Below, piece after piece: positions 3,816-33,783 of a stretch of 64,000 nt of DNA. The notes beneath the pieces are model-generated. The model was not told the DNA's origin. It was given only the letters and a program-made list of their open reading frames with translations, and ran no database searches. This DNA comes from Propioniciclava flava (GTDB taxonomy: Bacteria; Actinomycetota; Actinomycetes; Propionibacteriales; Propionibacteriaceae): assembly GCF_004126535.1 (NCBI RefSeq), contig NZ_PPCV01000003.1, positions 124,001 to 188,000 on the forward strand. Direction: 5' to 3'. The translations under genes were made by a program, and so were the position numbers. The stretch's first letter is position 1, and the number at the start of each line of letters is the position of its first letter.

Positions 3816-4511
3816 ATGAGCGCATCCGACCCCATCCAGCCCTACCCGACCGAACCGGGCAGCACCCCACCCGTGCCTCCCGCACCGACGAAGCGACCTC
3901 GCAACACCATCGCCTTGGTCGCCCTCATCGTCGCGATCCTCGGATTCGCGTTCGCCGTCATCGAGGGCGCCTACCTGCTGGGGTGGGTGCTTCTGCCGAT
4001 CGGGTTCGTCCTCGGCCTGGTCGGGCTGTTCGCCCGCGATCGCGGCAAGGGGCTCGCCGTGGCCGCCGTCATCGTCTCCGTCGTCGGCACGATCGCCGGG
4101 GTGGTGGCCTTCACTTCCAGCATGAGCCGAGTGGTGAACGAGAGCTTTCGCCCTGGCACCACCACGGTCGTGCCAAGCCCCGGGGCGACCACGACCGACG
4201 CGCCGGCAGGCTCCCCCGCGACCACCGCGAGCGGCAAGCGCACCATCGAGTTGAAGGTCACCTCGGAACGCCAAGCCTCGGTGTCCTACGCGGTGGGCTC
4301 GGGCAGCAGCAGTGAGGAGACGTCCGGTTCGTGGAGCAAGACGTTGCAGACCGATCGCGGGTTTGAGTTCGTCTCCCTGAGCGCCATGAACGCGGAATAC
4401 AGCAAGAAGAACGCGATCACCTGCGAGATCCTGGTCGACGGCGTCTCCGTCTCGCAGCAGTCGGGCGGCGGAACGTCGGCCATGGCGTCCTGCAGCGCGA
4501 CCGTCAGCTAA
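3816..4511 (+). CDS. DUF4190/MmpS-like membrane protein
   Basis: A 231-residue protein with a Pro-rich cytoplasmic head (residues 1-28), two transmembrane helices separated by a short LFARDRGKG loop (about 30-100), a Thr/Pro/Ser-rich linker, and an extracellular C-terminal domain (about 140-231). That domain has the beta-rich pattern of mycobacterial MmpS accessory proteins (KVTSERQASVSYAV at its start, paired Cys in TCEIL and ASCSA). The start has GAAAGAGAG 7 bases upstream. The gene converges with the thiamine-transport gene ykoC and their stop codons overlap in the four bases CTAA at 4508-4511. No MmpL-type exporter is adjacent, so its partner is unknown. Confidence 0.7.
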   Translation: MSASDPIQPYPTEPGSTPPVPPAPTKRPRNTIALVALIVAILGFAFAVIEGAYLLGWVLLPIGFVLGLVGLFARDRGKGLAVAAVIVSVVGTIAGVVAFTSSMSRVVNESFRPGTTTVVPSPGATTTDAPAGSPATTASGKRTIELKVTSERQASVSYAVGSGSSSEETSGSWSKTLQTDRGFEFVSLSAMNAEYSKKNAITCEILVDGVSVSQQSGGGTSAMASCSATVS

Positions 4512-5260
4512 CCGATCAGGGCGCCCGTCAGGACGCTGACCGTGGCGACGCCACCGCAGCAGGCCATCAGCCTGGTGTCGGTGGCAGTCCACGGGGCCGG
4601 GCACGCCCAGGTGCGCGGGACGCCGGTCCGCTGTGGCCGCGAGAACCCGCGCGCTTCGACGGCAATCGCCGTCTGGGCTGCGTCCCGCAGTGCCCCAACC
4701 AGCAGCGCAAGGGCCTGCTCAGCGAACCCGCCCACAGCCCGAATCGGGGAGCGACGGTCGTGTATGCCACGGACGCGGCGGATATCGCTGAGGTCGGCCC
4801 AGTCCTGGCCGAGGCGCTCGAAGCGCTGCACGGCGACCACCGCGGCCACGACCGGGCGTGGCGGCAGCCGCAGCCGCTGGGCGAGGTGGTCGCCTAGCTC
4901 AGCAGGACGCACAAACGCCGCGAAGACGACGCCGGGGACAACGAACAGCCCGACCCGCAGCCCCGCCGTCGCGGCGACCGCCCACGAGTGCGGGGTGGCG
5001 AGCAGCCAGTTCGACCAGGCGACGGACGCCACCGCGAGCCCCGCCGCGATCATCCGGCGCCACGGGAACCCGCCGCGTCCGCACCCCACGGGCAGCAGGA
5101 GTGCCAGCAGGGCCGCCCCCGCCATCAACCCTGACGCCCGCGGCGTCGCCAGGGCGCCCGCCATCAGCGCGAACGATCCGCCCAGCAGCGACAGCGGGCC
5201 GCATGAGGCCAGCAGCCCGCCCGTGGAGCGTCTGCGTGGTCGGCCGGAACTCTTCCTCAT
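4508..5260 (-). CDS. ykoC: ECF transporter T component of the thiamine/HMP transporter
   Basis: The 250-residue membrane coupling protein of an energy-coupling-factor transporter. Several hydrophobic helices are followed by a cytoplasmic region with VEARGF, one of the short Ala-Arg-Gly motifs by which EcfT proteins grip the ATPases. The ATG at 5260 overlaps the stop of the ATPase gene in ATGA, so translation is coupled; the longer frame upstream of it is not used. It is the last gene of the riboswitch-controlled thiamine operon, which supports a role in uptake of thiamine or its HMP moiety. The assignment to YkoC rests on operon order (ykoE, ykoD, ykoC). Confidence 0.85.
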   Translation of the reverse strand: MRKSSGRPRRRSTGGLLASCGPLSLLGGSFALMAGALATPRASGLMAGAALLALLLPVGCGRGGFPWRRMIAAGLAVASVAWSNWLLATPHSWAVAATAGLRVGLFVVPGVVFAAFVRPAELGDHLAQRLRLPPRPVVAAVVAVQRFERLGQDWADLSDIRRVRGIHDRRSPIRAVGGFAEQALALLVGALRDAAQTAIAVEARGFSRPQRTGVPRTWACPAPWTATDTRLMACCGGVATVSVLTGALIG

Positions 5261-11602: not shown

Positions 11603-13720
11603 ATGTCGTCACCGTTCACGGCCACCTTGGACGAGTCCGCAACGACATCCCCGGCGCCCGTACCCCCGCCTCGTCCGCGGTACCGCACCGAACTCCAAGG
11701 GCTCCGCGCCCTCGCGGTGGCCATGGTCGTGCTCTACCACGTGTTCTTGGATCGGGTCAGCGGGGGCGTCGACATCTTCTTGCTGATCTCGGCGTTCCTC
11801 CTCACCAGTTCGTTCATGGCGCGTATCCAGACGCGGCAGCCCCTGGCCGTGCCGCGCTATTGGATCAAGACCTTCACCCGACTGCTCCCCCCGGCCGTCG
11901 CGACGATCCTCGCTGTCCTCCTGCTGGTCTATCTGTTCTTCCCCGCCTACCGCTGGCGCGAAGTGCTCCAGCAAGCCATGGCGTCGGCCCTCTACTACGA
12001 GAACTGGCACCTCGCCGCCGGAGCGGTCGACTACTACGCGGTCGATCGCACCCAGGCCAGCCCCTTCCAGCACTTCTGGTCCCTCTCGATCCAGGGGCAA
12101 GTGTTCCTCGTGTGGCCGCTGCTTTTCCTCGCGGCCGCCTGGCGCATTCGCCACACCTATCCGCGGCGAGCCCCTCTCAGCGCGGCCCAGGTGCGGCGGA
12201 GCCTGACCTGGCTGTTTGGGCCCATCTTCGTGGTCAGCCTTGGGTGGTCGATCTATGAGACCGCCACCTCGCAAGCGTTCGCCTATTTCAATACCTTCGC
12301 CCGGCTGTGGGAGTTCGCGCTCGGATCGCTCCTCGCCATCTGGCTACCCGCTGCCGAGGACGCTTTCCGACGCAACACGGCCACCGCGTCGCCGTCGGGA
12401 CGCGTCCTGCGCGTCATCGCCGGCTGGGTCGGCCTGCTCGGCATGGTGTCGTGTGGCCTCATGGTGACGGTGGCCGGGGCGTTCCCCGGTGCGATAGCGC
12501 TGTGGCCGTTGCTCTCGGCGTCCCTCATCATCATCGCTGGCAACACCGGTAGCCCCTGGGGCGTCGACCGCTGGCTCAGCCACCCCGTGCTCAACCGCCT
12601 CGGGGACACCTCGTACGCGCTGTACCTGGTCCACTGGCCGCTCCTGATCACGATGATGGTGCTCCAGAACTCCGAGCGCCCCGGGATCATCGAAGGCATC
12701 GTCATCGTGCTGCTCTCGGTGAGGATCGCTTTCCTGCTCACGAAGTATGTGGACGCCCCGATCCGGACCAACCGGGCACTACGTCGATTCCCGGCCCGTG
12801 GGGTGGTCGTGATCCTGCTGTGCCTCGCGCTGGCGCTCGTTCCGGTCATCGCGATTCGCGGCGCGCTGGACCGCCAAACGGCCCGAGCACTCGCGGCGGC
12901 CTCGGCGAACAACCCCGGGGCCGCTGTCTTGACGGGCGCCTCCACGGGGCCCGCCGATCCCACCGCCGCACCGATCCCCCTTCCCGAGGACATTCCCTGG
13001 GACTGGGCGGGCCTTGAAATGCGGTGCAAAGGACGCCTCAAGCCGACGTCGGCTGTTCTCGCTTCGGCCTGTTCCCAGTCGGCCTCCGGCGAGGCGGAGA
13101 AGGTGATCCTCATCGCCGGGGATTCCCGCACCCAGCAGTACATGGCTGCCTTGCGTCCCCTCGCCGAGCAGCGCGGCTTCACGCTCGTGTCCATCTTGAA
13201 GGGCGGGTGCCCCCTGGCGCTTGAGGGCGTGGACGAGATGTGCCACGAGTGGAATGTGCAACTCATCCGTCACGTGGAGACGTTACGACCCGCCGCCGTG
13301 TTCACCACCACGACTCGCATCCTGCACGGCATCGAAGAGGTACCGGTGCCCGGCGTCGACACCCTGGTCAACCGGCTCACGACGGCCGGGATCGGGGTGA
13401 TCGGGTTGCGCGATCAGCCCCGCATGCCGTTCAACCCGATCGACTGCGTGTCGGAACGTTCCGAAGAGCAGTGCACCGTCACCACCCGGGGCATCTTCGC
13501 CGAGGAGGACCCCAATCGGGCCTTGGCGCGCAACGTCCGCGGGTCGGGCGTCTTTGTCCCGGTCGATCTTCTGCCGTGGATCTGCCCAGACGACCAGTGC
13601 CGCCCCGTCATCGGCAACGTGTTCGTCTACCTCGACGAAGACCATCTGACGCAGATGTACGCCACCACACTCGCCCCCGTGCTGGACGCTCAGCTCACGA
13701 CGGCGGGCTGGCGGTGGTGA
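11603..13720 (+). CDS. Membrane O-acyltransferase with SGNH domain (OatA-like)
   Basis: A 705-residue protein in two parts. Residues about 25-420 form an acyltransferase-3 domain with ten or so helices, starting YRTELQGLRALAVAMVVLYH, where the His is the family catalytic residue, and containing GDTSYALYLVHWPLL. After a further helix, residues about 480-705 form an SGNH hydrolase-like domain with ILIAGDSRTQQY (block I Ser) and DEDHLT (block V Asp-x-x-His). Such proteins transfer acetyl or other acyl groups from the cytoplasm to cell-wall or surface glycans. ATG at 11603 is favoured by GGGGAG upstream; in-frame starts exist at 11537 and 11579. Confidence 0.88.
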   Translation: MSSPFTATLDESATTSPAPVPPPRPRYRTELQGLRALAVAMVVLYHVFLDRVSGGVDIFLLISAFLLTSSFMARIQTRQPLAVPRYWIKTFTRLLPPAVATILAVLLLVYLFFPAYRWREVLQQAMASALYYENWHLAAGAVDYYAVDRTQASPFQHFWSLSIQGQVFLVWPLLFLAAAWRIRHTYPRRAPLSAAQVRRSLTWLFGPIFVVSLGWSIYETATSQAFAYFNTFARLWEFALGSLLAIWLPAAEDAFRRNTATASPSGRVLRVIAGWVGLLGMVSCGLMVTVAGAFPGAIALWPLLSASLIIIAGNTGSPWGVDRWLSHPVLNRLGDTSYALYLVHWPLLITMMVLQNSERPGIIEGIVIVLLSVRIAFLLTKYVDAPIRTNRALRRFPARGVVVILLCLALALVPVIAIRGALDRQTARALAAASANNPGAAVLTGASTGPADPTAAPIPLPEDIPWDWAGLEMRCKGRLKPTSAVLASACSQSASGEAEKVILIAGDSRTQQYMAALRPLAEQRGFTLVSILKGGCPLALEGVDEMCHEWNVQLIRHVETLRPAAVFTTTTRILHGIEEVPVPGVDTLVNRLTTAGIGVIGLRDQPRMPFNPIDCVSERSEEQCTVTTRGIFAEEDPNRALARNVRGSGVFVPVDLLPWICPDDQCRPVIGNVFVYLDEDHLTQMYATTLAPVLDAQLTTAGWRW

Positions 13721-26139: not shown

Positions 26140-26385
26140 GTGACGCACGAATCCGCCGCACACGCGGCAGCCGACCGGTCGACGGGATCCCCCGTCGACC
26201 GGTTGGTCGCGTTCGCCAAAGAATGCCGCCGGTTCGCCCGCGGCGTCCTCGGTTCGGACGCCTACGACAAGTACCTGCACCACCATCGCGTCACCGGCTG
26301 CGACCACGAACCGCTGTCCGAACGCGACTTCTGGCGCGCGAAATACCGCGACCAAGACCACAACCCCGGATCCCGCTGCTGCTGA
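26140..26385 (+). CDS. ybdD: YbdD/YjiX family protein (DUF466)
   Basis: An 81-residue partner of CstA: the core CRRFARGVLGSDAYDKYLHH, a His/Arg-rich stretch and DFWRAKYRDQD are typical. The GTG start follows the cstA TAG stop directly. In other bacteria this small protein is encoded with CstA-type carriers and is needed for full uptake. The C terminus ends in two Cys. Confidence 0.9.
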   Translation: MTHESAAHAAADRSTGSPVDRLVAFAKECRRFARGVLGSDAYDKYLHHHRVTGCDHEPLSERDFWRAKYRDQDHNPGSRCC

Positions 26386-26436
26386 TCACCCGAGACGCGT
26401 CGAGGCGTCAAGGGTGTGGTGACCAAGCAGGCCTGA

Positions 26437-26477
26437 CTGCTGCGGCGACCATTGTGTGGCGACCCTCTCCGCAGCAG
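26437..26477 (+). terminator. Inverted repeat after ybdD, possible terminator
   Basis: CTGCTGCGG and CCGCAGCAG form a perfect 9-base stem around a 23-base loop, 51 bases after the ybdD stop. There is no T-run directly after it, though TTTTTT occurs about 20 bases on. The rest of the 262-base gap to 26648 holds no gene I can support. Confidence 0.35.
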
Positions 26478-26647
26478 AGCCGAGGCCGCCCACCGACATT
26501 TTTTGGGCAGAGTGGGATCGATTGAACTCATCACGCTCAACCCCTTATCCTCAACGCTCGTTGCGGGCATCGACACGGTGCGCCTGTGGATAGATTCCAC
26601 AAACCCCTGGGGCTATGTCAGGCTGACAGCACCCCCAGGAGGTGACC

Positions 26648-27232
26648 ATGACGTCTCACCCACGATTCTCGCTCTTGTGTGGCGCATTAGCGGCGTCTAG
26701 CGTGCTGGCAGCCTGCGCTGGTCCCAGCACACCCAGCCCCACTCCGTCGCCGACGTACCAATGCGTCCCCGACGCTGGTGGAGACCCCGTCCCCTGCGGC
26801 CCGATCGAGTACGAGCAAGCCCAAGCCCGCGACGCCCTCTACGCCGAGGCCGAGGCCGTCTACCGCCGCTTCTGGGCAGAATCGGATCGACTCTACGCTT
26901 CCGAATCACCTGAAGTGACCCCCGAAATCGAGGCTACGACCGCCGGGAATTTCCTCAAGTACGTCGAGGAAGAATTCGCTGCACCGTCATACGCCCGGCG
27001 ACTCTCGGGTAACACAAGGCTTGTCCGCCTTGAGCGCTACGTGGGTGTCTCCCGCTCCGGATCAATTGTCTCCCTCAATGCCTGCTGGGACTCTTCAGGA
27101 GCGACTTTTTCGCCTCGCAATGGAGGCCCCGCAACTGCCGGTGTGGCAGTTGACGAGAACGTCTTCTTCTCCCGATTCGACGGTGTGCTGAAGTTGGTGG
27201 ACGCCGAGTCTGAGGCGGTGAACCAGTGCTGA
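26648..27232 (+). CDS. Secreted lipoprotein
   Basis: A 194-residue lipoprotein: signal peptide with lipobox LAAC (Cys near residue 23), a Pro/Ser/Thr linker, then a globular domain (AEAVYRRFWAESDRLY, VVSLNACWDS-like VSLNACWDS, FSRFDGVLKLVDAES). I recall this pattern from lipoproteins that Streptomyces and relatives encode next to a secreted protein labelled ATP/GTP-binding protein. Its expected partner is the split gene that follows. AGGAGG sits 5 bases before the ATG; the GTG at 26642 overlaps that site and is less likely. Confidence 0.72.
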   Translation: MTSHPRFSLLCGALAASSVLAACAGPSTPSPTPSPTYQCVPDAGGDPVPCGPIEYEQAQARDALYAEAEAVYRRFWAESDRLYASESPEVTPEIEATTAGNFLKYVEEEFAAPSYARRLSGNTRLVRLERYVGVSRSGSIVSLNACWDSSGATFSPRNGGPATAGVAVDENVFFSRFDGVLKLVDAESEAVNQC

Positions 27233-27239
27233 TACGAGG

Positions 27240-27524
27240 GAATACACGGATGACCAGTTGTATCGCGCGGGCCATCTCATGCGGATCCCTGAGTGCTGGG
27301 AGGAGTCTTGCATCGTCAGCAACTGCGTTGCTCAACACACGCCGACCACGGTCCCGACCGGCGTCTCCGCATCTTCGCGAAGCGAGGTGGAGACTCTCGT
27401 TTGCGCCCTCGTCTCCCGGCTCGTTATCCCCGATCCCACGCCGCAAATCGGGCCCGATCCCAGCGACAACGAGTGGAACATGGCAGTGGTCGGCTACCCG
27501 TTGTGGCTCTGGACCGACACCCCG
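27240..27524 (+). pseudogene. N-terminal remnant of a secreted protein gene split by a cassette
   Basis: This frame encodes EYTDDQLYRAGHLMRIPECW and, after a variable stretch, RLVIPDPTPQIGPDPSDNEW and VVGYPLWLWTDTP. The last part is the usual mid-protein motif of an actinobacterial secreted family (often mislabelled ATP/GTP-binding) that I recall continues with about 70 more residues and ends YTVTATSHW-like. Here the match stops at 27524 and becomes unrelated sequence. No good start codon is seen except TTG at 27258. The missing end is found at 31753-31878. Confidence 0.65.
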
Positions 27525-27606
27525 TGTGCTGCGTGCCGGAGGCCGTGGGTAAGTCGTCGCCCGGCTGGATCCCGAGAGCGGGTGCGGGCACCTTGAGATA
27601 TGTCGT

Positions 27607-28368
27607 CTAGGCATCGCGCCGGAGGCTCTGTCGGCTCACCGCGATGCTGGCGATGAAGAGGCATCCGGCGGTGACGATGACTGCCGAAAGCAGCGGGGGC
27701 GCGAGCTTGGCTGGATCGAGCGTAGCTGCACCAAGTAGCGCGGTCGGAGCCCAGGCAGAAACCGCTTTGAAGCTGTTGAGAAGCGGGAGTACGAGCATCA
27801 GCACGGTGGCAGCGGCAATCGCTACAGCGGTGCGGCGGGTGAACGCCATGATGAGGTACCCGACGCTCATGGTCATGACGAGGTAGAAGGCGGAAGCCAC
27901 CCCGACCGATGCGAGCGTTCCGACGTCGATCGATCCAATGGTCGTCGTGGTGAGTATCGCGGCTACGCCAAGGGCCACGAGATAGCTGGCAACGACGAAG
28001 ATCCACCCGATGACCAGCCGGGGCAGCGTGAGCCGCGCGAGATGGCGCACGCGGGTGCGGTAGAAGATCGAGGAACCGGGACGAGCATCCCACCCCAAAG
28101 AGGTGATTGCGACTGCGACTGCAAGGATGAGTCCCAGTTGCATGGCGCTCTGGTTGAACAGGGCGATTCCGTCGTCGGGGGTCGCGCTCGCCGCTTGAAT
28201 GGTGAGCTGTTCGGTGCCTGCGGCAGCGCCGAGTATCTCGGGCATGTAAAGCGCGACGACCGGGCCGGAGAGTCCGAAGAACACGAAGACGGCGACCAAC
28301 CCAATGAGCAGGCCAGATCGCATGAGGCGGAGCGTCTCGACGCGAGCGGAACTGAGGATGAGGTTCAT
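27607..28368 (-). CDS. ABC-2 type transporter permease
   Basis: A 253-residue membrane protein with six helices (GLLIGLVAVFVFFGLSGPVV, LGLILAVAVAITSLGW, VIGWIFVVASYLVALGVAAI and others). Partner of the ATPase at 28365, whose stop overlaps its ATG by 4 bases. Such pairs export peptides or remove antibiotics from the membrane. Last gene of the cassette operon. Confidence 0.8.
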   Translation of the reverse strand: MNLILSSARVETLRLMRSGLLIGLVAVFVFFGLSGPVVALYMPEILGAAAGTEQLTIQAASATPDDGIALFNQSAMQLGLILAVAVAITSLGWDARPGSSIFYRTRVRHLARLTLPRLVIGWIFVVASYLVALGVAAILTTTTIGSIDVGTLASVGVASAFYLVMTMSVGYLIMAFTRRTAVAIAAATVLMLVLPLLNSFKAVSAWAPTALLGAATLDPAKLAPPLLSAVIVTAGCLFIASIAVSRQSLRRDA

Positions 28369-29297
28369 GAGTGCTCTCGGTTTTGGATGATGCGGGCGAA
28401 GGAAGCGTCAAGATCACGGTCGCGCAGGGTGACTTCGATGATGGGCACCTGGAATGCTTCAAGCGCGGCGATGAGTCCAGTCTCGGCGCGCTCAAAACTA
28501 CGGAATCGAACGCTACACAACGTGTCGGTTTCAAATGTGAAGCTGGCTTCGGGCACGACCGTATTGAGGTCAGTGATGTCGCGCCGGGAGGGCGTGCCGA
28601 GACGCACCATCCAGTTAGGTTCGAGACCGTCTGTGAGGATCGAGGCCGTGGTGCCCTGGGTGACGATGCCGCCATGGTCGAGCACGACGATGCGATCCGC
28701 GAGCTGTTCGATCTCGCTGAGGAGATGGCTGGAGAGCACGATGCAGCGGTGTCGTTTCTGCTCGGTGATGATCTCTCGCACGTCAGCGCGGCCGATGGGA
28801 TCGAGTGCGCTGTTCGGCTCGTCGAGAATGAGAATGTCGGGATCGGTGACCAACGCCGCAGCAACGCCGAGACGTTGCAACATGCCCCGCGAGAAGTCCG
28901 CGACGCGGCGATCAAGGACGGCTCCCAGGCCGCAGGTGCGGAGAGTTGATTGTACGGACTGCTCTGCTCTTACGTCGTTTTGCTTTTTGTTCACTGGTCT
29001 ATTCGTGCGGGACACGGCGAGTGACGTTTCCACGACTTCGCGGGCCGTGAGCCAGGATTCAAACTGCGGCACATCGGGGCAGTACGCCATTGTCATATCC
29101 GCCGAAGCAAAGCTGACCGCACCCGACTGGGCCGAGGTCAGCCCTGCGATGATGCTAAAGAGCACGGTCTTTCCCGCGCCGTTGGGCCCGATGACGGCGG
29201 TTACGGCGCGATCCTCTGCGGTGAAACTGATGTCACGAATACCGCCACCTCCCGGATAGACGCGAGTGAGACCCTGGACGGTCACTGCAACGCTCAT
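28365..29297 (-). CDS. ABC transporter ATP-binding protein
   Basis: A 310-residue ATPase with Walker A IGPNGAGKT, signature FSRGMLQRLGV (a variant of LSGGQ common in bacitracin/lantibiotic-type exporters) and Walker B ILILDEPNSALDP. The C-terminal 90 residues (VRLGTPSRRDI onward) resemble the DUF4162-like tail of BcrA-type ATPases. Its ATG overlaps the stop of the PLDc_N gene. Confidence 0.87.
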   Translation of the reverse strand: MSVAVTVQGLTRVYPGGGGIRDISFTAEDRAVTAVIGPNGAGKTVLFSIIAGLTSAQSGAVSFASADMTMAYCPDVPQFESWLTAREVVETSLAVSRTNRPVNKKQNDVRAEQSVQSTLRTCGLGAVLDRRVADFSRGMLQRLGVAAALVTDPDILILDEPNSALDPIGRADVREIITEQKRHRCIVLSSHLLSEIEQLADRIVVLDHGGIVTQGTTASILTDGLEPNWMVRLGTPSRRDITDLNTVVPEASFTFETDTLCSVRFRSFERAETGLIAALEAFQVPIIEVTLRDRDLDASFARIIQNREHS

Positions 29298-29527
29298 CGC
29301 AGATCCTCATCCCGAATCTTCTGCCCCTGGCTACGGCCGACGATCAGGTAGACAATCGCTCCCAGCGGGATGAAGATCAACACGAACAGCACCCACGCCC
29401 ACTTGGGGAGGAGCTGCACGGGCTTACGGATGATGTCGATCAGGGACCAAGCGAGCAAGATTGTAGTAAGGGCGATCACTGGGATAAGCGGGACGAGCAT
29501 CGCCACATCGATGTCGGGGAGATTCAT
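29294..29527 (-). CDS. PLDc_N domain small membrane protein
   Basis: A 77-residue protein with two helices (IPVIALTTILLAWSLIDII and WAWVLFVLIFIPLGAIVYLI) and the charged ends typical of the phospholipase D N-terminal membrane domain found alone. It sits between the two ABC pairs of the cassette, where such proteins commonly accompany peptide-exporter genes. Confidence 0.85.
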   Translation of the reverse strand: MNLPDIDVAMLVPLIPVIALTTILLAWSLIDIIRKPVQLLPKWAWVLFVLIFIPLGAIVYLIVGRSQGQKIRDEDLR

Positions 29528-29558
29528 GGATTGCCGTTCGTTCGATTGGGTTCGATTG

Positions 29559-30371
29559 TCAGGTACCGAGCACGCGGGTGCTTCGGAATCCCCGTGCAGT
29601 CAGTCGGATGAGGGCAAGGCTCGCTAACAGGCTCACGATTAGGACTGCGACAATTGCGGGCAGCACCCAACCGGGCAGGAATAGCACCGATGGGATGACG
29701 ACGAGTGCGGGCAGCAGTGCGACGAGGCGGATGGGTCCACCGTTCATACCGGCCCTGCTGTCGAGGCTGTGCGGGTGCAGCAGGGCGCCGAACAGCGTAG
29801 CCGTAGCTGACCAGACGCCCATCGACAAGGGAAGAGCGACCAGGGCAACTCCGTACCCGAGCGACAGAGATATCGATACCCCGGCAAGGAAGGAAGCCAC
29901 GACTGCGACGATCCCGAACGCACACACCGCGACTATCCAGGCCACAGCTGTCAGAGCCAGGGCAGCGCCCAGATACGAATCGAACAGGCGTTGGCGAGGG
30001 ATCGGACTCGCCAGCAATACTTCGATTCCACCACCGCTGATGTCGTCAGCTACCACACCAGGAAGAGTGAGCGTTGCGACGATTGCGACGAGGGCGCCAA
30101 GGAAAGCCGGGGTCATCGTCAGTAGATAGGAGGTCATCGGGAGAAAACCGCCCGCCGAGTCACGCGCAACCACAAGTCCACCCGGATCGGCAGGAATCAT
30201 TTCCTGGAGGTTCGACAGCGTGTTCACGCTTCCAGAACCGAGAAAAACGAGTACGCCGAGGCCACCACCGACCAGCGCTGCCAGCCAGACCGCAGTGGTA
30301 CCCTGCTGCAACCAGGTTCGTCGCGCGAACGCGACGATGCGGCGTCGAGGCATGGACGTGGTGTTTGTCAT
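29559..30371 (-). CDS. ABC transporter permease
   Basis: A 270-residue membrane protein with about six helices and the motif DDISGGGIEVLLASPIPR in the first cytoplasmic loop, typical of ABC-2 exporters. It partners the ATPase at 30368, with a 4-base overlap. A 31-base gap separates it from the PLDc_N gene. Confidence 0.82.
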   Translation of the reverse strand: MTNTTSMPRRRIVAFARRTWLQQGTTAVWLAALVGGGLGVLVFLGSGSVNTLSNLQEMIPADPGGLVVARDSAGGFLPMTSYLLTMTPAFLGALVAIVATLTLPGVVADDISGGGIEVLLASPIPRQRLFDSYLGAALALTAVAWIVAVCAFGIVAVVASFLAGVSISLSLGYGVALVALPLSMGVWSATATLFGALLHPHSLDSRAGMNGGPIRLVALLPALVVIPSVLFLPGWVLPAIVAVLIVSLLASLALIRLTARGFRSTRVLGT

Positions 30372-31078
30372 GGCGTGTCCTCCAAGACAGCGAGAATCTC
30401 AGCCTCACTCACCGGCCGGTGAGCATCAGCACCAAGATCGATGAGCTGCCGTCCGCTGACGACCAGGTAGTGCTGGGCCAGGTGAAGCGCCTCGGGCACG
30501 CTGTGGGTCGAGTAGAGCACCGTGCGCGTCTCGCCCCATTCACTCAAGAGGTCGCGGGTCTGCGCGGCATACACCGGGTCGAGTCCGCTCAGAGGTTCAT
30601 CGAGCACAATGAACGTCGGGTCAGTCATAGCGAGGCGGGCCAGGTCGACCCGCTGCCGTTGCCCTCGGCTCAGCGACGACACCTTCTTGCTCAGCAGAGC
30701 ATCCAGGTCAAATTGGCTGATGAGTTCCTCGGTCGGCACCGAAGCGGCATCTGGGTAGGTGCTTGTTATGTCCGCCCAGAATCGGAGGTTCTGCTCCACA
30801 GTTAGCGCGCTCGCGAGCGCAGACGCATGACCGAGATAACCGACCTTCGACCGCACCGAAGCACCATCGGCCACAACAGCGCCAAGCACCTCACATGTGC
30901 CATCCAGAGGCGGGATGATCCCACACAGCGTTCGCATCAGCGTCGTCTTTCCTGACCCATTGCGACCCATCAGGGCCGTCACACCCGGCTTCAGCGTCAG
31001 GTTGAGCGGGCCGAGCACCTCGGTTGTGCCGTAGCCCGCAACAAGCCCGGTGGCGGTCGCGGTGTTGGTCTTGCTCAT
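30368..31078 (-). CDS. ABC transporter ATP-binding protein
   Basis: A 236-residue ATPase: Walker A MGRNGSGKTT, Q-loop region KVGYLGHAS, signature LSRGQRQRV, Walker B FIVLDEPLSGLDP, and the switch His in YSTHS. Its ATG overlaps the stop of the regulator gene, so the transporter is co-expressed with its presumed repressor. Confidence 0.88.
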   Translation of the reverse strand: MSKTNTATATGLVAGYGTTEVLGPLNLTLKPGVTALMGRNGSGKTTLMRTLCGIIPPLDGTCEVLGAVVADGASVRSKVGYLGHASALASALTVEQNLRFWADITSTYPDAASVPTEELISQFDLDALLSKKVSSLSRGQRQRVDLARLAMTDPTFIVLDEPLSGLDPVYAAQTRDLLSEWGETRTVLYSTHSVPEALHLAQHYLVVSGRQLIDLGADAHRPVSEAEILAVLEDTP

Positions 31079-31647
31079 TCCGCAGCTCCAGGCTCTTGAT
31101 GACCGTCCTGCGAACCGTTGGCTTCCTCTCGCGGAATGATCACCGTGGTCAGAGTGCGACGACGACGTCCCGGAGTTGGGCCATTGCCCAGCAGGCGCTC
31201 TAGAGCCGCCATGATGGTGCTGCCGAAGGCGTCGATCTCGTCGTCATCCGCCCAAAACGATGCCTGAGCGAAGCTCACTCGGTCGGCATGCAGTTTCGGA
31301 TCGCCGACTTCGAGGTAGTCACCGAAGTCGCGGATCAGCCCGGACGCGAACACGGTGAATGCGGTCAGCAGTTCCTCTTTGCTCAGCGCGTCCAGTTCCT
31401 CGGCGGAAGGGTTCACGAACGCTTCGGCCAAGCGGTAGGTCTTCTCGCTCGCCCCTCGAACCTGCCTTGCGCTGGCGACCTCAACGAGGTCGTGCGAGAC
31501 AAGGTGTGAGACATGCCTGTAGAGCGTCGCAATCGGCACATCAGGCAGTCGTTCGTGAAGCTGGTGTGTCGTCAGCGCATCGTCACCGAGCAACGTCTGC
31601 ACGATGCGAAGCCTCACGGGATGCATCAGCGATGAGGAGGAAGCCAT
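31075..31647 (-). CDS. ArsR-like HTH regulator of the cassette
   Basis: A 190-residue protein with an N-terminal winged helix (MHPVRLRIVQTLLGDDALTT, then LPDVPIATLYRHVSHL) and an unrecognised helical C-terminal domain (FASGLIRDFGDYLEV). It heads the cassette operon. The ATG at 31647 is 6 bases after TATAGT with no ribosome site, so it is probably leaderless. A TATCA-N4-TGATA palindrome overlaps this -10 by two bases, a natural position for self-repression. Confidence 0.82.
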   Translation of the reverse strand: MASSSSLMHPVRLRIVQTLLGDDALTTHQLHERLPDVPIATLYRHVSHLVSHDLVEVASARQVRGASEKTYRLAEAFVNPSAEELDALSKEELLTAFTVFASGLIRDFGDYLEVGDPKLHADRVSFAQASFWADDDEIDAFGSTIMAALERLLGNGPTPGRRRRTLTTVIIPREEANGSQDGHQEPGAAE

Positions 31648-31657
31648 GCTGCAACTA

Positions 31658-31671
31658 TATCAGTATTGATA
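31658..31671. promoter_or_regulatory. Operator overlapping the -10 of the cassette promoter
   Basis: TATCA-GTAT-TGATA is a perfect 5-base inverted repeat. The -10 (TATAGT, minus strand 31659-31654) shares two bases with it. It is the likely binding site of the regulator at 31075-31647. Confidence 0.6.
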
Positions 31672-31752
31672 ATAATAACAATGCGCTCCCGCTCTCCGGC
31701 TCATCCCACCACATGAACGTCGCGTTACGGATGAGCACCGAGCGCCCGACCG

Positions 31753-31878
31753 GTTACCGCCACTAGTCACTGGAGCGTTGCTTGGGAGGCCTTGGGCTAC
31801 TCCGGCACCATCCCGCTCACAGTCACGGGGAGCCGCGAGATCCCTGTTGGCGAACTCCACGCCGTCGTGGTCCGCTAA
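31753..31878 (+). pseudogene. C-terminal remnant of the split secreted protein gene
   Basis: This frame reads VTATSHWSVAWEALGYSG, then TIPLTVTGSREIPVGELHAV and a TAA stop. That is the expected last 40 residues of the secreted family whose N-terminal half lies at 27240-27524. It has no start codon of its own, and upstream the frame leaves the homology and meets a stop at 31732. Together with the N-terminal remnant it shows that a 4.2-kb cassette lies inside one former gene. Confidence 0.65.
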
Positions 31879-31909
31879 GGCTCAGCGTGATACCAACATC
31901 ACGCCATGA

Positions 31910-32797
31910 TCAGCGACCCCGGTCGGTGCGCAGCGGCAGACGGTCGCCTCGTAGCGAGGCGACCATGTCGAGGACGCGGCGGGTGGCGCGCACGTCGTGG
32001 GTGCGGAAGATCGTCGCTCCTTGCCATGCGGCGATTGCCGTCGCCGCCAGACTGCCTTCGAGGCGGTCGTCAGCGGGTAGGTCGAGTGTTTCGCCGACGA
32101 AGTCCTTGCGACTGATCGCCTGGAGGACGGGGAAACCCAGGGCGACGAATCGCTCGGTGTGCGCCACCAGGGCCAGCGAGTTGAGCGTGGTCTTGCCGAA
32201 GTCGAGGGTCGGGTCGATGAGGATGCGCTCCGCCGGTATTCCCGCGTCGACGGCGCGGCGTGCCCTCGCGTCCAGGACGCTGACGACCTCGTCGACGACC
32301 GCATCGCCGGGCCCATAATCCACGCCGACCGGGTCGGTGCGCGGGGGCAGTCCCCCCGTGTGCGACACGACGTAACCCGCCCCCTGGGCGGCCGCGACCT
32401 CGACGAGCGTCGGGTCGGCGCCCTGCCATGTGTCGTTCACCACGTCGATCAGGCCCGCGCAGGCGTCCGCGACCTCGGAGCGCCACGTGTCCAGCGACAG
32501 CAGCACGTCAGGCAACGCCGCCTTGAGCGCGCTGAGCGCGGGCTTGACGCGCGCGATCTCCGCGGCCGCGTCCACCCATTCGCCCTCTTGCCCGGCGCGC
32601 ACCCCGCCCACATCGACGATGCTGACCCCTTCGGCCACCATCGCGGACGCCGACGCGACGACAGCCGCCGCGTCCTCGTAGCGTGCGGGCGCATAGAACG
32701 AGTCGGACGTCCGATTGATGATGCCCATGACCGCCGGGTGGGCGGCGTCAAACGTCTGGCCCCGCAGGATCAGGGGCGCGGGTGCGATGCGCGTCAC
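31910..32797 (-). CDS. Dihydropteroate synthase-family protein (FolP2-like)
   Basis: A 295-residue TIM-barrel protein of the DHPS family: MGIINRTSDSFYAP at the start, VDVGGV, LLSLDTWRSEVA, VVNDTWQG, LIDPTLDFGKT and ISRKDFVGETL. True DHPS carries NVTPDSFSDGG in the first motif; here it is NRTSDSFYA, as in the mycobacterial FolP2 group, whose members lack clear DHPS activity. A folate role is therefore uncertain. GTG start at 32797 lies 7 bases after GAGACT (probable leaderless -10). No other folate gene is adjacent. Confidence 0.8.
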   Translation of the reverse strand: MTRIAPAPLILRGQTFDAAHPAVMGIINRTSDSFYAPARYEDAAAVVASASAMVAEGVSIVDVGGVRAGQEGEWVDAAAEIARVKPALSALKAALPDVLLSLDTWRSEVADACAGLIDVVNDTWQGADPTLVEVAAAQGAGYVVSHTGGLPPRTDPVGVDYGPGDAVVDEVVSVLDARARRAVDAGIPAERILIDPTLDFGKTTLNSLALVAHTERFVALGFPVLQAISRKDFVGETLDLPADDRLEGSLAATAIAAWQGATIFRTHDVRATRRVLDMVASLRGDRLPLRTDRGR

Positions 32798-32874
32798 GTG
32801 AGCGAGTCTCTCACCCCACCGAAATCCATGTCCTGCACACGTTCGCCCTTCCGGCGTTTCGCCGAGGCATCCGC

Positions 32875-33699
32875 TCAGAACAAAGTCGTGGGAACGTGGA
32901 ACGCCTCAACGACGCGGTGAAGTTCCTCGTCGGAGAGGCCCTGCGCGCGACCGCCGGTGGCCAGATTCTTGTACTCGTACAGGGCGCCCGTCTCGGCGTA
33001 CTCGATCTTGTCGCAAGCACCCAGCGGGGACACGTCGGAACGCGCCATGACGCCGTGCTTGGCCCACAAGACGACCTGATGGTCGCGCAGGCCAGCCACA
33101 TTGCTGGCCATCAGCTCATCGGAGCCTGGCACCATGAACGGCAGGAACTTCACGCCCTCGGGAAGTTGGACGATCGTCTCAGGCTCCCAGCGCAAGATCG
33201 CGCGATTGAGCTCGGCGGTGCCCTGAAACTCGGGCAGGTGCGACAGCAGCGTCAGATGCGGCGGCTGGGCGTGGATCACCGCCTGGAACGCGACCCCACG
33301 GCGAGCGACCTGATCGTCATGGACGCCCAAGTGTGAGTTGAACTCGCTGGTGGGACGAACGAAGTTCCCCCCGGCCCGGTAGTGGAGCGTCCCCGCCCGG
33401 CCACCCTCGTGGACGACGACCGCACCGACGTTGTGCGCGGGCTGATCGCCGACCTCACGCAACCGGCACCCCGAGCCGGTGACGAGCACCGTGTACCCCG
33501 CCAGGTGCGGGACGGCGAGCGGCAGCTCAAGTGGACGCTCGGCGTCGAAGAACTCACCCAATTCCAGAGGTTCGCGCGCGATGACAGAGAGATTTCCCGC
33601 CCCCGCCTCGATCGCGTCAATGCTGTTGAGGCGGCGTCCAGCGGCCCCCATGCTGGCCAGGATGTCGGTGAGCGTCTCGGGATACGACGTTGTTCCCAT
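32875..33699 (-). CDS. rhaD: L-rhamnulose-1-phosphate aldolase
   Basis: A 274-residue class II aldolase. Zinc-binding His are in VIHAQPPHL (near 140) and LWAKHGVM (near 211); the catalytic Glu is expected near NFVRPTSEFNSH. It splits rhamnulose-1-phosphate into dihydroxyacetone phosphate and lactaldehyde. AGGAGGG lies just before the ATG, and an imperfect copy of the rha operator (33718-33729) lies about 20 bases upstream. The kinase and isomerase are 4-6 kb away, separated by unrelated genes. Confidence 0.93.
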   Translation of the reverse strand: MGTTSYPETLTDILASMGAAGRRLNSIDAIEAGAGNLSVIAREPLELGEFFDAERPLELPLAVPHLAGYTVLVTGSGCRLREVGDQPAHNVGAVVVHEGGRAGTLHYRAGGNFVRPTSEFNSHLGVHDDQVARRGVAFQAVIHAQPPHLTLLSHLPEFQGTAELNRAILRWEPETIVQLPEGVKFLPFMVPGSDELMASNVAGLRDHQVVLWAKHGVMARSDVSPLGACDKIEYAETGALYEYKNLATGGRAQGLSDEELHRVVEAFHVPTTLF

Positions 33700-33717
33700 C
33701 GCCCCTCCTTCCAGAGT

Positions 33718-33729
33718 TGAATCGTTTCA
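33718..33729. promoter_or_regulatory. LacI-type operator upstream of rhaD
   Basis: TGAATCGTTTCA is a 10/12 match to a palindrome with the CG centre typical of LacI-family sites. It shares its core with the perfect palindrome upstream of rhaI at 40018-40033, so both are probably bound by the regulator at 40102-41130. Confidence 0.6.
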
Positions 33730-33783
33730 TAGCTTAGGCGGCGTCGGCCTTGCCTGTCGAGGGTGCTCCAGCCCCCATCGAGG

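Follow-up and report, generated by a model that had tools for sequence, protein, structure and literature searches.

An ABC-exporter operon with plasmid-borne relatives between the remnants of a secreted-protein gene in Propioniciclava flava

We examined a 64,000-nucleotide stretch of Propioniciclava flava DNA (hereafter the window), which occupies bases 124001-188000 on contig 20 of the source genome (G000; 3.0 Mb in 26 contigs). On its minus strand lies a six-gene operon of ATP-binding cassette (ABC) exporter type, which stands between two remnants of a plus-strand gene for a secreted protein and has relatives on other replicons. The reading we favor, at a probability of about three in four, is that an ABC-exporter operon travelling on plasmids was acquired horizontally and fixed by a recombination event that deleted part of a redundant gene. 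The case is a clear but fairly ordinary one of horizontal gene transfer.

Remnants of the secreted-protein gene

A preliminary description of the window had proposed that the two fragments belong to one gene family and that a search would leave a gap of 60-80 residues between them. Both proposals were borne out, as 27258-27524 and 31753-31878 matched the same two intact paralogues, located at G000:C26:2811-3701 and G000:C24:738-1604 (two genes, 296 and 288 codons). The left remnant was identical to these at 51 and 47 of 80 aligned residues, respectively, and the right remnant at 29 and 30 of 41, terminating in the exact C-terminus of the paralogues, GELHAVVVR. The residues absent between the two alignments numbered 69 against either paralogue, and in their place stand 4,228 bases comprising the minus-strand operon and its spacers. 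The features of the site outside the operon are as follows.

26642..27232, plus strand: lipoprotein-like gene, intact and paired with the broken gene downstream of it (paralogue alignment)
27226..27257, plus strand: 5' remains of the broken gene, with a start-like but out-of-frame GTG at 27226 (paralogue comparison)
27258..27524, plus strand: left remnant of the secreted-protein gene, ending ...VVGYPLWLWTDTP (paralogue alignment)
27527..27607: left spacer of 81 bases between the left remnant and the operon, with arm 27568-27586 of an inverted match
31680..31752: right spacer of about 73 bases, containing an ATG at 31713 and, at 31684-31702, the second arm of the inverted match
31753..31878, plus strand: right remnant of the secreted-protein gene, from VTATSHW... 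to a TAA (paralogue alignment)

The length of the gap was also consistent with the hallmark of the family, which comprises a core ...NEWNMAVVGYPLWLWTD..., a C-terminus ...PVGELHAVVVR and a distance of 114-118 residues from the WLW motif to the stop codon, and which the window remnants fit. A pattern screen of 21 loci yielded copies in nine and no match in 12; in 10 of the 11 copies found in this way the distance was 114-118 residues, and the eleventh (111 residues) had an unrelated tail. For the window, the 4 residues left after WLW in the left remnant, the 69 missing and the 41 of the right remnant add up to 114, exactly the expected length. Neither Pfam nor NCBIfam holds a model of the secreted-protein family, and the lipoprotein-like gene gave no match in either database. 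Each intact paralogue lies directly downstream of a lipoprotein-like gene resembling the one at 26642, with which those two genes share 92 of 177 and 89 of 175 aligned residues.

The preliminary description had further held that the gene was split with both halves remaining. Both remnants are real, but the split was not a clean one. At the insertion point 207 bp of the target were lost, and the gene also lacks about 230-240 bp at its 5' end, including the signal peptide, such that the stop codon of the lipoprotein gene lies 52 nt from the IPECW motif in the window, whereas the two intact pairs have 293 and 281 nt between these points. Of the 296 codons, about 130 survive. The window copy has neither the N-terminal signal peptide nor the continuous frame by which members of the family are recognized, and it is a pseudogene, since its 5' part is lost, the GTG is out of frame and 69 codons have been replaced. 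The translation of 27228-27617 (...IPECW...VVGYPLWLWTDTP) is stop-free as far as 27596, and the left remnant contains no internal stop. Differences between the remnants and the paralogues amounted to 0.61-0.76 at third codon positions and 0.17-0.38 at positions 1 and 2. The still stop-free frames, together with this preponderance of third-position changes, suggest that the gene began to decay only lately, compared with the time at which the paralogues diverged.

The left remnant was searched in 57 genomes and found matches in 26, including 11 of the 12 other genomes of the genus and three further places in the source genome. Because intact paralogues elsewhere in the genome make the gene redundant, loss of the window copy would be tolerable. 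The third place is a degenerate pair (G000:C26:1-949), in which the end of the lipoprotein gene and the secreted-protein core are recognizable. Its secreted-protein part (C26:221-949), at the contig edge, stops matching after ...RRGATT, and its 3' third is replaced by unrelated sequence next to an aldolase gene. With this copy and that of the window both broken, two of the four copies are broken. Contigs 24 and 26 both start at lipoprotein/secreted-protein pairs.

The operon, its control region and its relatives

As the preliminary description stated, the operon comprises six minus-strand genes in the order regulator, ATPase, permease, PLDc_N protein, ATPase and permease.

31654..31681, minus strand: promoter-like site, positioned for leaderless transcription of the regulator (TTGTTA 31681-31676, TATAGT 31659-31654)
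31658..31671, minus strand: putative operator TATCAATACTGATA, overlapping the -10 element and kept in five cassettes
31075..31647, minus strand: HTH_20 (ArsR-like) regulator, first gene of the operon (Pfam, NCBIfam)
30368..31078, minus strand: ATPase 1, ABC_tran (Pfam, NCBIfam)
29559..30371, minus strand: permease 1, ABC2_membrane_2 just below the cut-off (Pfam)
29294..29527, minus strand: small PLDc_N membrane protein (PF13396, E 7.6e-8)
28365..29297, minus strand: ATPase 2, ABC_tran (Pfam, NCBIfam)
27607..28368, minus strand: permease 2, ABC-2/type V exporter fold (fold match; no Pfam match)

The 4-base overlaps that had been noted between the genes are four in number (31075-31078, 30368-30371, 29294-29297 and 28365-28368). 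Permease 1 and the PLDc_N gene are instead separated by 31 bases, and this sole junction without an overlap is the border of two modules. The two ATPases matched ABC_tran with E-values of 2e-27 and 1.1e-24 in Pfam, and their position beside multi-helix permeases fits, as judged by domain content, an ABC-2 type exporter.

Relatives of the whole operon were found on other replicons. A blastn comparison gave a single block of homology with each of the Corynebacterium maris plasmid pCmaris1 (31679-27608) and Microbacterium esteraromaticum (31677-27608) and none outside it, and these two were 83.3% identical to each other over the same block. The ends of the blocks define the conserved unit, which reaches from about 30 nt above the ATG of the regulator to the last stop codon. 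The proteins were 66-77% identical to those of the window in pCmaris1 and 64-77% in M. esteraromaticum, with the same gene order. The pCmaris1 operon (B841_RS13160-RS13185, NC_021920.1:40489-44536) has the same six genes, order, overlaps and operator; unlike the window copy, it is plasmid-borne, adjoins a relaxase fragment, lies between IS6-like copies and stands outside any gene remnant. All six genes are also present in Nesterenkonia ebinurensis.

Searches of plasmid records gave the following results. In a tblastn search of 72,556 records, the regulator matched 27, one of which covered at least 80% of the query (pCmaris1, 75.6%), and permease 1 matched two, Deinococcus proteolyticus pDEIPR04 and again pCmaris1. 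When the DNA of 27400-31800 was used as the query, seven plasmid records were returned, with pCmaris1 (74.1%) the one to cover 80%. A scan of a named genome collection with permease 2 found three loci, in M. esteraromaticum, N. ebinurensis and Propionibacterium sp. oral taxon 192. The last of these carries the regulator, PLDc_N, ATPase 2 and permease 2 (one module, 55-66% identity) and lacks the first ATPase/permease pair, while D. proteolyticus carries the regulator, ATPase 1 and permease 1 (one module with a related regulator, 36-50% identity) and lacks the second; both differ from the window in neighborhood. These partial sets suggest that the two modules are separable under one type of regulator. 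A virus as carrier found no support, as a search of viral contigs with permease 2 produced 174 pattern matches and no relative.

Closer to the host, none of the 12 other genomes of the genus gave a DNA match of cassette length, and four of them gave matches of 43-128 nt only. The preliminary description would have yielded to relatives showing the same layout with an intact copy of the gene elsewhere; such a layout did not appear in these 12 genomes, but intact paralogues do exist in the source genome itself, in other neighborhoods. Among 197 other genomes of the family, the regulator found 15 relatives at E 1e-10, one at the Propionibacterium locus L038 (66% identical) and the others 25-49% identical. 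Occurrence across the class is patchy: of 393 other genomes, one matched permease 1 and seven matched permease 2, all at 27-34% identity.

For the leaderless promoter and operator claimed in the preliminary description, the support lies in position and in conservation. The promoter-like site ends 7 nt upstream of the regulator ATG at 31647 and would place the transcription start at or beside that codon. The pattern was found once in the window against 0.9 expected by chance; since this count is no better than chance, the weight of the promoter rests on its position and on the conserved operator. The operator spans 11-24 nt above the ATG. It is identical (TATCAATACTGATA) in the window, pCmaris1 and M. 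esteraromaticum, and its counterparts are TATCGATACTGATA in Propionibacterium sp. oral taxon 192 and GATCGATAATGATA in Nesterenkonia. The upstream region of Deinococcus, the sixth sequence compared, aligned poorly at the operator. The annotated start of the Deinococcus regulator (L073:7912-7982) may be 12 codons too far upstream, and the aligned Met would again be preceded by a TTGATAATGATAATAAT-like stretch. We infer that the regulator represses the operon.

Between the window and pCmaris1, the fraction of codons differing was 0.12-0.16 at position 2 and 0.35-0.52 at position 3. The rarity of position-2 changes relative to position-3 changes indicates, at the level of codon comparison, that the operon proteins are under purifying selection.

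A model of permease 2, built from four sequences (pLDDT 74.4), was compared with the ABC-2 (type V) exporters NosFY and PmtCD, whose fold it shares. Structural alignment gave Z 20.2 for NosY (2.8 A over 224 residues, 14% identity) and Z 15.7 for PmtCD (10% identity). In spite of the likeness in fold, the identity of permease 2 to the two systems is low (13-14% and 10%), and the operon contains no Nos or Pmt partners. In a Foldseek search with permease 2 no match passed E 0.001, NosY and PmtCD being the top rows, and a sequence search for related solved structures returned none. The fold of permease 2 is uninformative on the substrate. The model of permease 1 was unusable (pLDDT 41.8).

Origin of the insertion and competing explanations

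Several results weigh against the horizontal acquisition that we favor. The junctions showed neither a transposase or integrase nor a target duplication, as the preliminary description had also observed for recombinases and duplications, and searches of 196 other family genomes and of the plasmid collection gave no convincing source for either spacer. Composition gives no support for an insertion, because the cassette and the resident genes share the same GC content. Furthermore, no intact copy of the gene was found at this very site among the genomes compared, the interval between CstA and FolP being checked in G006 only. In no further genome of the genus did CstA and FolP match on a single contig at the cut-offs applied. 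In G006 the lipoprotein pair is missing from the interval, which holds instead an aldolase and an alpha/beta hydrolase, the latter identified by eye in translation. G006 also has a distant regulator relative (37%) beside an ABC ATPase, and G017, from the same family, has a distant regulator by a divergent PLDc_N/ATPase/permease set; these sets suggest that the family is not wholly without relatives resembling the modules. The spot between CstA and FolP is variable, and the order of the folate gene and the neighboring aldolase-like gene is swapped between the window (31902-33732) and G006 (L077:3857-5723).

The cassette had been described as poorer in GC (61.5%, against 68.8% for the window). 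We rejected this as a mark of foreign origin, since values just as low were obtained for the lipoprotein gene (62.4%) and for the pairs of intact paralogues (61.0-64.0%). The same figures bear on the possibility of joint arrival, in which a single 5.5-kb segment (26386-31901) would have brought in the operon along with the lipoprotein gene and both fragments of an already broken gene. Homology with G006 breaks off at 26385 and restarts at 31902, and the GC content of the whole segment lies below that of its flanks, as would be consistent with joint arrival. However, the lipoprotein pair is resident, with its three further copies in the genome, its matches in 11 of 12 genomes of the genus and its equally low GC content, and no such DNA homology lies beside the operons of pCmaris1, M. 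esteraromaticum, Nesterenkonia and Propionibacterium. We regard joint arrival as unlikely.

Another possibility concerns plasmid relaxases. The 5' end of a relaxase gene is where the transferred strand would begin or end, and the operon might have been excised together with the opening codons of a MobF relaxase gene, the junction with the chromosome forming at that point. In pCmaris1 the operon lies 40 bp from, and divergent to, a 296-codon frame that matched MobF relaxases by tblastn, and in M. esteraromaticum it lies 54 bp from a divergent 1175-codon MobF frame (NCBIfam MobF, 128.3 bits; cut-off 100). The two relaxases are of distant subtypes, being 32% identical over 107 aligned positions. 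As far as position 4994, the M. esteraromaticum frame is 76% identical in DNA to plasmids of Rhodococcus and M. paraoxydans, in which the relaxase start is annotated some 66-78 bases further inward, so that the true distance between operon and relaxase gene may be larger. An end of plasmid homology near a gene start is unremarkable in itself. A relaxase gene within 100 bp of the operon was seen in pCmaris1 and M. esteraromaticum; the window has only a start-like ATG.

That ATG, at 31713, is one of three ATG or GTG codons on its strand in the right spacer. It lies 34 bp from the end of the homologous block and points in the same direction, and its first 28 bases resemble the relaxase start of pCmaris1 with a DNA score reached by 10 of 3952 ATG/GTG codons in the window. 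Against this, the resemblance stood out less by peptide score, which 38 of 4931 starts equalled, the part in question could comprise no more than about nine codons, and the relaxase frame of pCmaris1 is itself short. When the right spacer was aligned with eight relaxase starts or their upstream DNA, one alignment, upstream of the gene, was equalled by 3 of 300 shuffles and the remaining ones were unremarkable, with 26 to 221 of 300 shuffles as good. The relaxases of the host were considered as a source of the putative scar and rejected, since none begins in that way or matches the spacer. Cryobacterium pA26BH1, the best plasmid match to the spacers (E 0.2), likewise led nowhere; spacer matches were short and weak, reaching 46 nt. 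In Glutamicibacter protophormiae pR912A, an 82-nt relaxase 5' fragment (L087:806-887), 82% identical to pCmaris1, sits in a resistance region between predicted cmx and tet(33), with a full MobF gene at 4001, a configuration in keeping with recombination at relaxase starts. On balance, relaxase-linked recombination appears improbable. We hold equally doubtful the broader proposal of a portable, self-repressed, leaderless two-exporter operon that moves as a unit from promoter to last stop, recurs at MobF 5' ends and left a scar of relaxase codons in the window.

The source genome gave five MobF matches, four of them over the cut-off and three on contig 11 (C11:339935-341158, C11:420095-420982, C11:346077-346970, C19:238096-238986 and C20:355664-355900). 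Two of these relaxases are about 80% identical to that of M. esteraromaticum over 832-833 positions, which makes it likely, on sequence grounds, that the host has been in contact with a plasmid of the M. esteraromaticum type, though not at this site.

Transport within a small transposon or inverted-repeat unit, with a transposase acting in trans, is very unlikely: the outer spacers share a 19-nt inverted match (84%), and the pCmaris1 copy is bracketed by two same-direction, 83% identical IS6-like elements (L072:3282-4073 and 12698-13485), but the inverted match lies outside the homologous parts of the other cassettes, no IS6 element was recognized at the window site, and the loss of target DNA without duplication is not an outcome of simple transposition. 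The inverted match was equalled in 65 of 3000 cases when segments were paired at random with the geometry preserved (2.2%) and, under a stricter local alignment, by 37 of 500 shuffles (7%). The two spacers share no direct repeat longer than 6 nt. None of the six operon genes, which encode regulator, transporter and PLDc_N proteins, is a transposase. The inverted repeat and the resemblance to a relaxase start may be considered weak hints. The IS6-like pair of pCmaris1 is itself a possible pseudo-compound transposon.

Under the acquisition and partial gene deletion that we favor, an exporter operon circulating on actinobacterial plasmids would have entered the species, with a plasmid as the presumed donor, and illegitimate recombination would have placed it in one of the four lipoprotein/secreted-protein pairs, replacing 69 codons. 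The operon would work wherever it lands, because it brings its own repressor gene in first position, an operator over the -10 element and a leaderless start. The repressor would hold expression low until released by a ligand, probably a membrane-active compound that the pumps remove. Two exporters would then be made, one from ATPase 1 and permease 1 and the other from ATPase 2 and permease 2 with the small PLDc_N membrane protein.

Function and significance

The label "resistance-type" in the preliminary description was a guess from ABC architecture, and it drew no support from specific models. Against the lantibiotic-protection (LanFEG-like) model TIGR03740, with a cut-off of 309.75 bits, ATPase 2 scored 132.8 and ATPase 1 scored 84.3 bits; against the drug-resistance (DrrAB-like) model TIGR01188, with a cut-off of 312.45 bits, the two ATPases scored 120.0 and 120.5 bits, all below the cut-offs. 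A resistance function may still be a reasonable guess. With regard to antiphage defense, a PADLOC run on five cassette proteins (ATPase 1 omitted) and two resident proteins gave generic ATPase and HTH matches only, the best being mad3 for ATPase 2 (6.8e-26), which is not system-specific.

The order PLDc_N, ATPase, permease of the second module resembles that of the Bacillus subtilis sigY operon (YxlE-YxlF-YxlG, with YxlE as the PLDc_N protein), a likeness in gene order. Unlike the sigY operon, that of the window has an HTH_20 regulator in place of a sigma factor and a built-in second ATPase/permease pair. YxlF/YxlG has been counted among the exporters whose function is unknown (PMC11466899). 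The pCmaris1 operon is annotated with hypothetical and ABC genes only, and passages of the pCmaris1 genome paper contain no discussion of it (PMC3910691). No description of the operon was found in the literature searched, most subscription journals being outside its coverage. Within that literature the operon is previously undescribed, and its kind, a regulated ABC-exporter operon, is already known.

Taken together, and without overturning known biology on either point, our data provide two things. The first is a case, well bounded and open to dating, in which plasmid cargo became fixed in the chromosome of an actinobacterium and a redundant gene was sacrificed; here the transferred unit is delimited by relatives on at least three other replicons. 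The second is a named exporter operon of two modules; its operator is conserved, and its substrate can now be sought.

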